Assembly: GCA_903859215.1 (NCBI GenBank)
Contig: CAIOLW010000131.1
Location: 1 to 32,812, forward strand
DNA length: 32,812 nt
Direction: 5' to 3'
Source: an uncultured bacterium
GTDB lineage: Bacteria; Krumholzibacteriota; Krumholzibacteriia; LZORAL124-64-63
The translations under genes were made by a program, and so were the position numbers. A model generated the notes under the pieces. The model made no database searches. It saw nothing but the letters and a program-made list of their open reading frames with translations, and was not told the origin of the DNA. Position 1 is the first letter of the stretch, and each line of letters begins with the position of its first letter. Below, one piece after another: positions 9,117-30,400 of this stretch.

Positions 9117-9143
9117 TAAATCCATTCCGGATCCGGCCGATAA
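9117..9143 (+). promoter_or_regulatory. Consensus sigma-28 (FliA) promoter for flagellin
   Basis: TAAA (9117-9120), a spacer of exactly 15 bp and GCCGATAA (9136-9143) match the enterobacterial sigma-28 consensus at every position. It lies 71 bp upstream of the flagellin start codon. Flagellin is the classical late-class target of FliA. Confidence 0.93.
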
Positions 9144-9214
9144 TGCGAGTGTGGGGAAGGATCCCCGGGGCCGCCCCGATTTGGGCGGCGGCATCGACGG
9201 AAGGACCCATCCGC

Positions 9215-10057
9215 GTGGGCATCCGCATCGGCACTAATGTGGCGGCGTTGACCGCCATGCGTCACCTCGCGAACGCGACGAATCGCGTGAACCGCTCCAT
9301 GGAGCGGCTCAGCAGCGGTCTGCGCATCAATCGCGCGGCCGATGATCCCGCCGGCCTGGCCATGTCCGAGAAGTTGCGCGCGAAGATCCGGGCGCTCGAT
9401 GTCGGGGTGCGCAATGCGGGCGACGGCATCTCGATGGTGCAGATCGCCGAGGGTGCGCTCGGCGCGAGTTCCGACCTCATCGTCCGGTTGAAGGAACTCG
9501 CCGAGCAGGCGATGAACGGCACGGTGTCGGACGAGCAGCGCGGATACCTGAACCAGGAATTCCATGCGCTGGTCGAGGAGATCGACCGCATCGCGGTGAC
9601 CACCGAGTTCAACGGGCGCTACCTGCTGGACGGCTCGGGCGGCAACACCGGCATCCAGGTGGGTACCGGCAGCCAGTCCGGCGGGCAGATCGACGTCGCG
9701 ATCGGCTCGTCGTATTCCGCGGCAGGGCTCGGGCTCGACAATGTGACTCTTGCGGGCAACCCGGCGTCATGGGCGGTGCAGCCGCTCGATGCGATCGAGG
9801 CCGCGATGCGGATGGTCAGCTCCGGGCGCGCCGGGTTCGGCGCCACGCAGAACCGCCTCGAGTCGTCGGTCCGCATGATGTCCATCGAGCGCGAGAACCT
9901 GTCGGCGGCCGACAGTCGCATCCGCGACGTGGACTACGCGGCGGAGGTGAGCGAACTGACCAGCGCGCAGATCCTGCAGCAGATGGCCGTGGCGATGCTC
10001 GCGCAGGCCAGCCGGCAGCCGGCGCTGGTGCTGCAGCTGATGGGGATCCGGCAGTAG
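9215..10057 (+). CDS. fliC: Flagellin, short form lacking a large variable domain
   Basis: The 280-residue product begins (M)GIRIGTNVAALTAMRHLANA and contains LSSGLRINRAADDPAGLAMSEKL and EFNGRYLLDG. These are conserved parts of the flagellin N-terminal D0/D1 domains (about residues 1-145). The C-terminal D1/D0 domain includes NRLESSVRMM, DSRIRDVDYAAEVSELTSAQIL and QASRQPALVLQLMG. Only about 50 residues separate the conserved halves, so the surface D2/D3 domains are missing, as in other short flagellins. The GTG at 9215 has GGAAGGA 9 nt upstream. An upstream in-frame ATG at 9143 overlaps the promoter and is rejected. The protein would form the flagellar filament after export by the flagellar type III system. 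No other flagellar gene is in the window. Confidence 0.95.
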   Translation: MGIRIGTNVAALTAMRHLANATNRVNRSMERLSSGLRINRAADDPAGLAMSEKLRAKIRALDVGVRNAGDGISMVQIAEGALGASSDLIVRLKELAEQAMNGTVSDEQRGYLNQEFHALVEEIDRIAVTTEFNGRYLLDGSGGNTGIQVGTGSQSGGQIDVAIGSSYSAAGLGLDNVTLAGNPASWAVQPLDAIEAAMRMVSSGRAGFGATQNRLESSVRMMSIERENLSAADSRIRDVDYAAEVSELTSAQILQQMAVAMLAQASRQPALVLQLMGIRQ

Positions 10058-19188: not shown

Positions 19189-19902
19189 ATGCGCCGAATC
19201 CACGCCGTGCACCGTAGTCGCGTCCCGTTCCGCGTGACCGTCCTGGCGATCCTGTTGCTCTTCGGCGGGGTCGCCTCGGCCTCGACCTGGCTGGTGCCTG
19301 CCGGCGGCGAGACCTGGGTCGCCGGCAGCTCGCATACCGTGGCGTGGAGCGGCACCGGCACCTCGGCCATCGTGACGTACCACCCGCTGCCGCTGTCGAT
19401 GACGGGTTACGTCGTGGCCGCCTACTTCCCGAACACCGGCTATGTGACCTTCAACATCCCGGCGAGCACGCCGCCCGGCCAGTACGTGATGAACGTCGGC
19501 TACCAGACGGGCGACCTGCCGGTGTACAGCCAGCCGTTCACGATCGTGGCGCCGCCCGAATGCCTGAGCGGGTGCAACCTGGTCTCGGCGAGCATGCCGC
19601 CGTCCTCGCCCTGGACCGGCATCCCGCCCACGGGCGCGTGCGGCTACAACGTCTTCACGGCCACCTCGGCGGCCGAGGCGTACATCCAGTCGGCACTCTC
19701 TGCGCAGTGTTTCAGCGGCTACACGCTGGACCCCGGCAGCGTCCACATCGACGTCACGCTGCTGCCGTCGGGCATCGGCACGTGCCTGTCCGGCTTCACC
19801 GGGACGTTCGTGGCCGAGGCCACGGGCTTCGGGTGCTGCTGTCCCGATGCGGTGCCGTCCGAGTCGCAGAGTTGGGGCGGCGTGAAGGCCCGGTACCGCT
19901 AG
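19189..19902 (+). CDS. Secreted Cys-rich protein with Kre9/KNH-like N-terminal domain
   Basis: The 237-residue product has a basic N-terminus and a signal peptide ending near residue 31. Residues 33-123 (WLVPAGGETWVAGSSHTVAW, ending in QPFTIVAP) resemble the Ser-Thr-rich Kre9/KNH-like beta-sandwich found in secreted bacterial proteins. The remaining part has eight cysteines, including a CCC cluster, so disulfides or metal binding are possible. The last residues, ESQSWGGVKARYR, closely match the tail of the next protein. AAGGA lies before the ATG. It is preceded by the speA terminator and an AT-rich promoter with a Fur-like site. It may be cell-surface or secreted; the function is unknown. Confidence 0.8.
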   Translation: MRRIHAVHRSRVPFRVTVLAILLLFGGVASASTWLVPAGGETWVAGSSHTVAWSGTGTSAIVTYHPLPLSMTGYVVAAYFPNTGYVTFNIPASTPPGQYVMNVGYQTGDLPVYSQPFTIVAPPECLSGCNLVSASMPPSSPWTGIPPTGACGYNVFTATSAAEAYIQSALSAQCFSGYTLDPGSVHIDVTLLPSGIGTCLSGFTGTFVAEATGFGCCCPDAVPSESQSWGGVKARYR

Positions 19903-19999
19903 GCGGCAATGCCGCGTTGGTTGTCATCGCCGCGCTTGCCCCGGGTGTCGCCAGTTCCGGCGACCCGGATCGCGGCGGGAATCAAGGACAGGTTCGGAT

Positions 20000-20659
20000 A
20001 TGCAATCTCGTGAACGTGATAGCCGCAGCCTGCGGGTCGCCGCCTTCGGAATCCTGGCGCTCGTGCTGGCGGCGGCTCCCGCTGCCTTCGCCCAGACCTG
20101 GACCGAAACCGGTGACGCCGGCGACCTGGTGGGCACCGCCCAGTCCACGATCGGCACCGGCGCCCTGATGAACATCGCCGGCGTCCTGTCGGGGCACGGC
20201 GACGTCGACGTGTATTGCGTCCACCTGACCTCCGTGCCGCCGGCGGGACTGCCGCTGGTCTCGGTCGCCTGCGCGGCACATGCCGATCCCACACCGTACC
20301 TGTTCGATGCCGCCGGCATGGGCATCAACACGAACATGACGTGCGCCGGGGGCCTGAAGCAGGCGGTGGCCCCGTACTACTCGCTGGCGCCGGGGCTGTA
20401 CTACGTCGCCATCGCCGCCGGCGACTGGCTGCCGCAGTCCGCGGGCGGGAGCATCTGGCAGATGCTGTACTCGGGCCCGATGGCGCCCAATGGCCCGGGC
20501 GCCGGCAGCCCGCTGACGGGCTGGGTGGGACCGTCGTCGGTCACGGCGCCGGCCGCGTACACGCTCATCCTGAACCAGAATTTCACGGGCTACTGCGACG
20601 CCGCGACGCCGATCGAGAACTCGTCGTGGGGCTCGCTGAAGGCGCGCTTCGGGAACTGA
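20000..20659 (+). CDS. Secreted PPC-like domain protein
   Basis: The 219-residue product has a signal peptide ending in AAFA before QTWTETGDAGD. Residues about 36-190 follow the pattern of a bacterial pre-peptidase C-terminal-like (PPC) beta-sandwich: ETGDAGDLVGTAQ, then LSGHGDVDVYCVHL and SLAPGLYYVAIAAGDW. This domain occurs in secreted enzymes and stand-alone surface proteins; no catalytic domain is seen. The tail, ENSSWGSLKARFGN, repeats the C-terminal motif of the preceding protein although the bodies are unrelated. It starts 97 bp after the previous stop, in the same direction. The two are likely exported together and share a fate set by the tail (inference). Confidence 0.78.
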   Translation: MQSRERDSRSLRVAAFGILALVLAAAPAAFAQTWTETGDAGDLVGTAQSTIGTGALMNIAGVLSGHGDVDVYCVHLTSVPPAGLPLVSVACAAHADPTPYLFDAAGMGINTNMTCAGGLKQAVAPYYSLAPGLYYVAIAAGDWLPQSAGGSIWQMLYSGPMAPNGPGAGSPLTGWVGPSSVTAPAAYTLILNQNFTGYCDAATPIENSSWGSLKARFGN

Positions 20660-27851: not shown

Positions 27852-28643
27852 ATGACGGCGATACTGGCAGGCATCGGCAGGGGCGTCATCGACGCCCTCA
27901 GCGGAGCGGGCAGGGGACTGCTCCTTTTGCGTTCGATCCTGCTCCAGACGCCCCATGCCTGGCGCATGCGCCGCGAGATCCTCGAGCAGATGCAGGTGGT
28001 GGCGGTCGGCTCGATGCCGATGGTCATCGTGACCTCCGTCTTCGTCGGCGCCGTCACCGCCGTCCAGGCCGTGTACCAGATGCAGGCCTACGTGCCGATG
28101 AAGTTCCTGGGCACGGTCATCTCCAAGTCGGTCTTCATCGAGCTGGGGCCGGTGCTGATGGCGCTGGTGGTCGGCAGCCGCCTGTGCGCCAACTACGCCG
28201 CCGAGCTGGGCACCATGAAGGTGACCGAACAGCTCGATGCGATGACGATCATGGCGATCGACCCGAACCGCTACCTGGCGATGCCCCGCTTCTGGGCCGC
28301 CGTGCTGATGATCCCGGTGGTGACCATCTTCTGCGACGCCATCGCCATCATCGGCGGCTACGTGGCCTCGGTGGCGACGCTCGACGTCTCGAGCGGCGTG
28401 TTCATCGAGGGCCTGCAGATGTTCTACAAGCACTCGGACCTGCTCGGCGGCCTGGTCAAGTCGTTCTTCTTCGGCGGCATCATCGCCATGAGCGGGATCT
28501 ACTACGGGTTCAACACGAAGGGCGGCGCCGAGGGCGTCGGCCGTTCGACGATGACCGCGGTCGTGGGCAGTTGCCTCAGCATCCTGGTGGCCGACTACCT
28601 GCTGGCCATCGTGCTGTTCCAGATCATCTTCGAGAAGACGTGA
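27852..28643 (+). CDS. mlaE: MlaE-type ABC transporter permease
   Basis: The 263-residue product matches MlaE permeases: a hydrophobic N-terminal part, SVFVGAVTAVQAVYQMQAYV, SVFIELGPVLMALVVGSRLCANYAAELGTMKVTEQLDAM (the family signature near the coupling helix) and four or five further membrane segments. It works with MlaF and MlaD to move phospholipids between the inner and outer membranes. The downstream genes mlaF (2-nt gap) and mlaD confirm the operon. The first genes of the E. coli system (mlaF-E-D-C-B) appear here in the order E-F-D, common outside Enterobacteria. MlaC and MlaB are not seen in the window. The promoter leaves almost no 5' leader. Confidence 0.94.
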   Translation: MTAILAGIGRGVIDALSGAGRGLLLLRSILLQTPHAWRMRREILEQMQVVAVGSMPMVIVTSVFVGAVTAVQAVYQMQAYVPMKFLGTVISKSVFIELGPVLMALVVGSRLCANYAAELGTMKVTEQLDAMTIMAIDPNRYLAMPRFWAAVLMIPVVTIFCDAIAIIGGYVASVATLDVSSGVFIEGLQMFYKHSDLLGGLVKSFFFGGIIAMSGIYYGFNTKGGAEGVGRSTMTAVVGSCLSILVADYLLAIVLFQIIFEKT

Positions 28644-28645
28644 GC

Positions 28646-29458
28646 ATGCAGCAGGACTGGGACATCCCCCCGCCACCCGACCAGCGCGTCGCCTCGCCGG
28701 CCGCGTTCAACGGCATCGTGGTCGAAGGGGTCACCAGGAGCTTCGGGCCGAAGAAGGTGCTCGACAACTGCGACCTGCTGATCCACAAGGGCGAGACGAT
28801 CGTCATCATCGGCCGCAGCGGCGAGGGCAAGTCCGTCCTGCTGAAGCACATCGTCCGGCTGCTGGAGCCGGATGCCGGGCGCATCTGGGTCGAGGGCAGC
28901 GAGGTGGGGACGCTTGAACTCGACCCGCTGATGGCGATGCGCCGGAAGTTCGGCTTCCTGTTCCAGGGCGCGGCGCTGTTCGACTCGATGACGATCGCCA
29001 AGAACATCGGGCTGGCGCTCGAGGAGCACACGGACTGGACGGCCGCGAAGATCCGCGCGCGGGCCAGCGAGTGCCTGGCGCAGGTGGGCCTGGTCGGGGC
29101 CGAGGACAAGCTGCCGAGCGAGCTGTCCGGCGGCATGAAGAAGCGCGCCGGCCTGGCGCGGGCCATCGTCATGGAGCCGCAGTACATTCTGTACGACGAG
29201 CCCACGACCGGCCTGGACCCGATCACGTCGGACGCCATCAACGACCTGATCATCCAGTTGCAGAAGGATCTGGGGGTCACGAGCATCGTGGTGACGCACG
29301 ACATGCCGAGCGCCTTCAAGATCGGCGACCGGATGGCGATGCTCAGCCGTGGCCGGATCGTGTTCACCGGCACCGTCGACGAGGTGCGCACGACGTCGCA
29401 CCCGATGGTGCGCCAGTTCATCGAAGGGCGTTCCCAGGGTCCCCTGGGGGCATTCTGA
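28646..29458 (+). CDS. mlaF: MlaF-type ABC transporter ATP-binding protein
   Basis: The 270-residue product has Walker A GRSGEGKS (56-63), a Q-loop in LFQGAALFDSM, signature LSGGMKKR (from 160), Walker B ILYDEPTTGLDP and the switch His in VVTHDM. The LSGGMKKR variant and DSMTIAKNIGLAL are typical of MlaF. It supplies ATP hydrolysis to the MlaE permease. An N-terminal extension of about 20 residues precedes the domain. The ATG lies 2 nt after the mlaE stop. Confidence 0.95.
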   Translation: MQQDWDIPPPPDQRVASPAAFNGIVVEGVTRSFGPKKVLDNCDLLIHKGETIVIIGRSGEGKSVLLKHIVRLLEPDAGRIWVEGSEVGTLELDPLMAMRRKFGFLFQGAALFDSMTIAKNIGLALEEHTDWTAAKIRARASECLAQVGLVGAEDKLPSELSGGMKKRAGLARAIVMEPQYILYDEPTTGLDPITSDAINDLIIQLQKDLGVTSIVVTHDMPSAFKIGDRMAMLSRGRIVFTGTVDEVRTTSHPMVRQFIEGRSQGPLGAF

Positions 29459-29506
29459 CCATAGCAGGGCCGCGGCGCGCCCGCTCGCCGGCCCGGGGGG
29501 AAGCAG

Positions 29507-30400
29507 ATGCGAGGCAGACTCAACGAGATCCAGGTCGGCCTGGTGAGCATCATCGCGATCGCGATCCTGATCTCGGGCATGCTCTGGCTGAAGAACATCG
29601 ACCTGCGCAAGGGGTCGCACATGTACCAGGCCGACTTCGCCAAGGTCGAAGGGCTGCGACAGGGCGACAAGGTGCAGGTGCGCGGCATCCGCATGGGCGA
29701 GGTCATCGGCATGCAGATCATGCCGCAGGCCGTGCGCGTGCAGATGCAGCTGGATGACACCGCGCGGCTGTGCGAGGACGCCGTCGTCATCCTCGGCGAG
29801 AAGGGCATCGTGGGCGAGGTCGTGATCGAGGTGGACCCGGGCATCGGCAAGCCGGTCGAGGAAGGCCACATCTTCGCCGGGCGCTCGGCCGGCACCATCG
29901 CGGCCATGACCGACGCCGCGGGCGCCGCCATCGCCGAGATGCGCACGCTGACCGGCCAGGTGACGTCCCTGCTCGAGGAAGTGCGCAAGGAAGGCAAGGT
30001 CGTCGCGACGCTCGAACAGGCCAACACGACGCTGGTCAAGGTCGACCACATGGTCGAGCAGAACCACGAGGACATCCGGGTCATCCTGACCGACCTGCGC
30101 GCCTCGACGAAGGAAATGCGCAAGCTGATGGAATCGGGTCGCCTGGACGAGGCGCTGGCCGGCACCGCGGCCGCGGCCGTGACGGCCGATTCGCTGATGG
30201 TGGGCCTGCGGACGACCACGGCCCGGTTCAACTCGCTGCTGACGAAGCTGGACCAGGGCGGCGGCTCGGCCGCGATGCTGCTGAACGACCCGGCGCTCTA
30301 CACGCGCACGGACTCGACGCTGACGGCGGTGCAGCGCCTGCTGGACGACCTGCGCCGCAACCCCAAGAAGTACTTCAAGCTGAACATCATCGATTTCTAG
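29507..30400 (+). CDS. mlaD: MlaD-type MCE domain protein
   Basis: The 297-residue product has one N-terminal membrane anchor (about residues 9-28), a single MCE domain (about 38-120, YQADFAKVEGLRQGDKVQVRGIRMGEV, ending near VVIEVDPG). A long C-terminal helical region follows (about 130-230), with VTADSLMVGLRTTTARFNSL and LLNDPALYTRTDSTL near the end. The MCE ring contacts lipids as they pass between membranes, and the C-terminal helices may form a coiled coil or extended part of the complex. GGGGGAAG precedes the ATG. It is 48 bp downstream of mlaF. E. coli MlaD is shorter (183 residues), so the long tail is typical of other lineages. Confidence 0.93.
   Translation: MRGRLNEIQVGLVSIIAIAILISGMLWLKNIDLRKGSHMYQADFAKVEGLRQGDKVQVRGIRMGEVIGMQIMPQAVRVQMQLDDTARLCEDAVVILGEKGIVGEVVIEVDPGIGKPVEEGHIFAGRSAGTIAAMTDAAGAAIAEMRTLTGQVTSLLEEVRKEGKVVATLEQANTTLVKVDHMVEQNHEDIRVILTDLRASTKEMRKLMESGRLDEALAGTAAAAVTADSLMVGLRTTTARFNSLLTKLDQGGGSAAMLLNDPALYTRTDSTLTAVQRLLDDLRRNPKKYFKLNIIDF

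Follow-up and report, generated by a model that had tools for sequence, protein, structure and literature searches.

Among the described C-terminal sorting signals, the type A C-terminal domains (CTDs) of the T9SS are seven-stranded beta-sandwiches that are bound inside the pore protein SprA and by PorV, and that carry a near-invariant lysine near the C-terminus (PMC10994853). Shorter CTDs of 40-55 residues, which retain motifs B, D and E, are found in Prevotella intermedia (PMC11969387). Type B signals use specialised PorP/SprF shuttles, the shuttles being specialised per signal class (PMC12618676). The tail described here is a modular element that stands strictly at the C-terminus of unrelated exported bodies, is conserved across phyla, and in homologous proteins takes the place of the T9SS CTD. 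It is quite probably a stand-alone C-terminal sorting tag of about 15 residues for Sec-exported proteins.

The window, i.e. the whole stretch of 32,812 nucleotides that was analysed, is contig C131 of a 4.33 Mb assembly in 391 contigs (G000). Two of its genes, both on the forward strand, were reported in the earlier note to encode secreted proteins with different bodies and nearly identical ends, and both the open reading frames and the sequence agree with this. Gene 1 (19189-19902), as judged from its reading frame, Pfam and orthologues, encodes a secreted protein of 237 residues with a Kre9/KNH-like domain, a Cys-rich C-terminal part and the tail, and ends in ...VPSESQSWGGVKARYR. Gene 2 (20000-20659) encodes a secreted protein of 219 residues that has no confident Pfam domain, and ends in ...TPIENSSWGSLKARFGN. 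Sec-type signal peptides, as claimed for both, were found at 19189-19284 (a charged n-region and a hydrophobic stretch, heuristic score 4.3) and 20000-20092 (score 4.0), their ends being approximate. Including the stop codons, the tags occupy 19852-19902 (V-P-S-E-S-Q-S-W-G-G-V-K-A-R-Y-R, delimited with the consensus of 43 proteins of this genome and 158 others) and 20609-20659 (P-I-E-N-S-S-W-G-S-L-K-A-R-F-G-N), again on the forward strand. The description of the gene 1 protein as Kre9/KNH-like and Cys-rich holds for the Cys-rich end, while the Kre9_KNH match (residues 37-119, 23.6 bits, E = 8.7e-5) remains slightly below the Pfam cut-off of 24.6 bits. The gene 2 protein cannot be called PPC-like, since its only Pfam match is sub-threshold and to another family. 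A structure of the gene 1 protein predicted from the single sequence was too poor for use (pLDDT 37). Elsewhere in the window, a flagellin-like gene (9143-10057) is, by eye, not surrounded by any obvious flagellar operon, and genes at 27852-30400 resemble, also by eye, a Mla-type lipid transport set consisting of a permease, an ATPase and an MCE-domain protein.

The frequency of the tail in this genome was determined at the DNA level with the pattern W-G-x-[VILM]-K-x-x-[FY], its position left unconstrained, and with the genome read backwards as control. The pattern matched 43 times, compared with 0 matches in the control, and every match is C-terminal, the protein ending at most three residues from the motif both in the first 30 loci and in the remaining ones. 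A strict pattern with arginine and stop codon gave 38 matches (control 0). When the glycine and the aromatic residue were dropped but the arginine and stop were kept, 39 matches were obtained (control 0), all 39 of which contain WG. A DNA hit to G000:C368 was discarded as a GC-rich coincidence in unrelated genes. The compiled set comprises 43 proteins, one of which, taken from the relaxed search, has W in place of F/Y. Their consensus is V-P-x-E-x-x-[ST]-W-G-x-[VLI]-K-[AGS]-[LM]-[FY]-R-stop, with the nine-residue WGx[IV]K[ASG][LM][YF]R-stop preceded by P-x-E-x-x-[ST] as the commonest form, and the information content of the alignment falls to background about 8 residues upstream of W. In 38 of the 43 tags, the aromatic residue is followed by one final R; the other five, gene 2 among them, end in RR, RQ, AR, DGR or GN. 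Since all counts rest on pattern searches, variants outside the pattern are missed, for example SWGAIKSMMD and TSWSAIKAMYR.

Orthologues of gene 1 from G036, G037, G038 and G072, which belong to the window's family, all keep the tail at a protein identity of 48-76%, and the DNA under the two tails differs, so that the earlier exclusion of a recent duplication of the end is borne out. Together with the counts of 43 and 38 against none in the reversed controls, this conservation rules out chance similarity as well. The earlier note would have been refuted by absence of the motif from the C-termini of other exported proteins, a condition not met given the 43 C-terminal matches, or by a larger known domain reaching into the tail. 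No Pfam or NCBIfam (June 2026) model matched in the tagged proteins of this or the other genomes covers it.

At least 40 of the 43 bearers pass the signal-peptide score, the remaining three being short or of doubtful start. This score is a crude home-made heuristic, not SignalP, and over-calls; at its loosest setting, a signal peptide was assigned to 194/221 tagged compared with 267/694 untagged ORFs in all fetched loci. The bodies in this genome are unrelated and include Kre9-like, lamin-tail (LTD), right-handed beta helix, laminin-G lectin, CBM20, Temptin-C, PPC, DUF4114 and ExeM-type nuclease domains. In other genomes Chlam_PMP, FG-GAP, NHL, cohesin, Cleaved_Adhesin and the NCBI families choice-of-anchor J, E, V, F and X were found. 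Because 'choice-of-anchor' is the NCBI name for domains preceding various known sorting signals, a sorting signal is to be expected where tagged bodies of these families carry the tail. Evidence against the sorting-tag reading comes from a few bearers that are lipoproteins and thus already anchored N-terminally: a lipobox-like sequence was found in 9 of 201 tagged proteins and appears to be genuine in about four. Tagged lipoproteins that look SnoaL-like (a fold name given by eye) are fused in tandem at L186:1366-2613 (reverse strand) and L155:1869-3044, and the internal copy of the tag in these fusions is degenerate (SWGVIKYCF), a state that would fit the loss of a stop codon separating two tagged genes.

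The tail is by no means confined to the genome of the window. In Krumholzibacteriota, the phylum of the window, the R-stop form occurs in 78 of 80 genomes, with only two control matches over all 80, and the number of copies ranges from 25 to 47 in the window's genus and from 1 to about 30 in the rest of the phylum. Eisenbacteria (the phylum of G081) carry it in 44/47 genomes, with up to 41 copies and no control match. Among the matches listed, up to 58 copies were found in genomes deposited under other names (G094), and those beyond the window's genome comprise many hundreds of tailed proteins from several poorly studied phyla. Single matches in Syntrophaceae and Cellulosilyticum records lie outside any exported protein and were attributed to chance. 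Two records share their contig coordinates with genomes listed in the window's class, namely G079, identical to G089 (WVZY01000069.1, deposited as Latescibacterota CS4-C107), and G026, identical to G084 (DHHB01000007.1, deposited as UBP1 UBA4783); their titles therefore disagree with their placement in this class.

In Cloacimonadota the tail is rare, being present in 12 of 79 genomes with one copy each. Ten of these tails belong to orthologues of a single secreted protein, about 235 residues long, which keep the end SWG[RK]IK..YR at approximately 34-74% identity; the other two matches are ascribed to chance. The Cloacimonadota bearer (L237-L245, L192, L193) is a DUF5689-like secreted protein, and it may be the original carrier of a tag that later spread elsewhere.

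A structural model was calculated with AF2 for one tagged family from ten aligned sequences (L080, L109, L117, L180). The blocks of the body, which has a cohesin-like fold (6kgf, 2zf9), mostly reach pLDDT values of 75-92, while the tail stays below 50 and lies outside the body; by this model, the tail does not belong to the body fold. Its sole predicted element is a helix at residues 179-186, exactly over the tag, which is a weak prediction. An argument from amphipathicity was left out of the evidence because the hydrophobic moment is no better than that of permuted tails (fraction 0.19). Tagged secreted proteins of about 185 residues with the predicted cohesin-like fold form tandem arrays at L080:96-3402 and L109:4220-7581, and Pfam Cohesin itself was matched in another tagged protein.

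Several untagged homologues of tagged proteins among the ORFs of the fetched loci end in a T9SS type A or FlgD-like CTD, and all six that were tested, which were also examined with Pfam, pass the TIGR04183 cut-off (23 bits). At locus L129, three adjacent genes have related bodies; the outer two carry a T9SS CTD and the middle one ends in ...ATEPTTWGGIKQLYR. The tag thus takes the position that is otherwise filled by a T9SS signal. No T9SS CTD (TIGR04183 or PF18962) appears among the 12 families matched per library (Pfam, NCBIfam) in the 43 tagged proteins of this genome, nor among the 25 families listed for 95 other tagged proteins.

We also searched for a machine that could read the tail. Of 33 tag-bearing or related genomes, 32 gave a match to SprA, 31 of them over the cut-off, and all 28 genomes searched for PorU gave one (26 over the cut-off); in the window's genome both exceed the cut-off, SprA being encoded at C241:52359-56234 and PorU at C166:11390-14782. 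SprA was not convincing in two single-tag Cloacimonadota, and the genomes with one or few tags in which it was not detected are G088, G083 and G108. It is also found in two genomes without the strict tag (G006 and G136), so that the T9SS is not sufficient for the presence of the tag, and SprA does not separate tag-bearing from tag-free genomes. No gene recurs next to the tagged genes in the fetched loci. Four PorV-like barrels among these loci are not clearly above expectation; the PorV/PorQ-like outer-membrane barrels recognised by motif near tagged genes at L102:2532-3461, L171:2319-3311 and L155:1-534 are too few to establish linkage. As to the earlier suggestion of a co-occurring sorting enzyme or translocon, SprA and PorU do co-occur with the tag, but not specifically, and no dedicated enzyme or translocon was found.

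On balance, we favour, as somewhat more likely than not, an undescribed sorting system in Krumholzibacteriota, Eisenbacteria and related phyla, in which WGx[IV]KxxYR by itself would direct the Sec-exported proteins that bear it, dozens in each genome, to an unidentified outer-membrane machine and would replace a T9SS domain of 70 residues. The body would cross the inner membrane by Sec, with a short P-x-E linker joining it to the core [ST]-W-G-x-[IV]-K-x-[LM]-[YF]-R at the extreme C-terminus. After export, an outer-membrane or periplasmic receptor may bind the short tail, a free helix in the low-confidence model, and might then take the protein through or onto the outer membrane. The earlier proposal of a C-terminal sorting signal is thus supported by dozens of unrelated exported bearers and the strictly C-terminal position, while sorting itself, like the reading of the tail by an outer-membrane carrier, remains inferred in the absence of direct evidence of transport, cleavage or anchoring.

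A T9SS-associated carrier is the likeliest reader, though it can be put forward only tentatively. The tag would then be a minimal T9SS signal, a third CTD class beside types A and B, to which PorV or a PorV/PorP-like shuttle binds before passage through SprA. The alternation of tag and type A CTD on homologous bodies and the near-universal occurrence of SprA and PorU in tag-rich genomes are in line with this, as are the variable length of T9SS signals down to the short Prevotella CTDs of 40-55 residues (PMC11969387), the near-invariant Lys close to the C-terminus of type A CTDs (PMC10994853), which the tag shares, and the specialisation of shuttles per signal class (PMC12618676). However, the tag has none of the motifs B, D and E and matches no CTD model, some genomes have SprA but no tags, or one or few tags but no detected SprA, and shared ancestry would explain the co-occurrence equally well. 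The T9SS is therefore a plausible but unproven route for the tagged proteins, the dependence on SprA and PorV being an inference.

Nearly as likely is a T9SS-independent, undescribed outer-membrane or periplasmic receptor, acting in export, retention or anchoring. Such a receptor would accord with a tag unlike any T9SS signal, with the finding that within a phylum the presence of the tag does not track that of the T9SS, and with the ten conserved Cloacimonadota tails on a single orthologous protein, but neither a candidate nor a conserved neighbour was found.

We consider it unlikely that the tag is a docking peptide which plays no part in directing transport but, once secretion is complete, attaches the protein to a scaffold or layer at the surface. 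The bearers, which include lectin, cohesin-like, beta-helix and nuclease proteins, are typical of the cell surface, and in the model the tail lies outside the fold; yet in homologues it replaces an export signal, the T9SS CTD, which docking would not need, and no scaffold was identified. A role in quality control or processing, in which a periplasmic C-terminal protease or a PDZ-type chaperone would recognise the tag, is highly improbable: although the distance to the free carboxylate is fixed in most copies, the basic R end and the invariant W, G and K are to our knowledge unlike known protease tags, and the restriction to surface-type secreted proteins would be left unexplained.

If the preferred reading of a sorting tag is correct, the tail would enable annotators to pick out the exported or surface proteome in several phyla for which metagenomes are almost the only source of knowledge; in these phyla, many tagged proteins lack an assigned family. 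It also raises the question of whether a short linear peptide can replace a folded T9SS domain, and via which receptor. A DNA pattern with almost no background matches is a dependable tag finder and makes phylogenetic profiling for the receptor possible, an approach that has reportedly been applied to PEP-CTERM.

The suggestion that the tag is distinct and undescribed is consistent with the lack of a family model covering it and with our failure to find a paper describing the motif, in a literature search that did not extend to most subscription journals or any bioRxiv preprints. Like PEP-CTERM, it marks many unrelated exported proteins with a short region of homology at the C-terminus and occurs in many copies per genome, but it has neither the PEP motif nor a transmembrane helix. 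As the earlier note had stated for the two window proteins, such a helix is missing: none of 201 tagged proteins has a hydrophobic segment in its last 45 residues (15-residue window, mean Kyte-Doolittle >2.0). Exosortase (PF09721) is present in many relatives, some other tag-bearing genomes among them. The eight genomes tested from the window's family, which include its own genus with 25-47 tags, all lack exosortase; it is therefore not the general reader of the tag, and on both grounds PEP-CTERM/exosortase can be excluded. GlyGly-CTERM/rhombosortase and MYXO-CTERM/myxosortase resemble the tag in being short, in occurring dozens of times per genome and in their choice-of-anchor and M36-type bodies. 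Their signals, however, consist of a motif, a hydrophobic helix and a basic tail, whereas the tag has no hydrophobic helix and its consensus (43 own and 158 other proteins) contains neither GG nor an invariant Cys; both systems were rejected on these grounds, and LPXTG/sortase likewise, as an LPXTG-like motif is also absent from this consensus.

T9SS type A and B CTDs share more with the tag, namely the C-terminal position, varied Sec-exported bodies, the same genomes, homologous bodies, a near-invariant Lys near the C-terminus and, in these genomes, a usually basic last residue. Nevertheless, a CTD folds into a beta-sandwich of about 70-80 residues (40-55 in the short form), while the tag has about 15 residues, an invariant W-G, no CTD motifs, no beta-sandwich and no match to any CTD model, and is accordingly distinct from it. 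The short CTDs of Prevotella intermedia are likewise reduced signals at the C-terminus, but they keep 40-55 residues, three predicted strands and recognisable motifs. With all these systems in view, the tag meets the general criteria for a C-terminal sorting tag, being short, strictly C-terminal, attached to unrelated Sec-exported proteins and present in many copies per genome.
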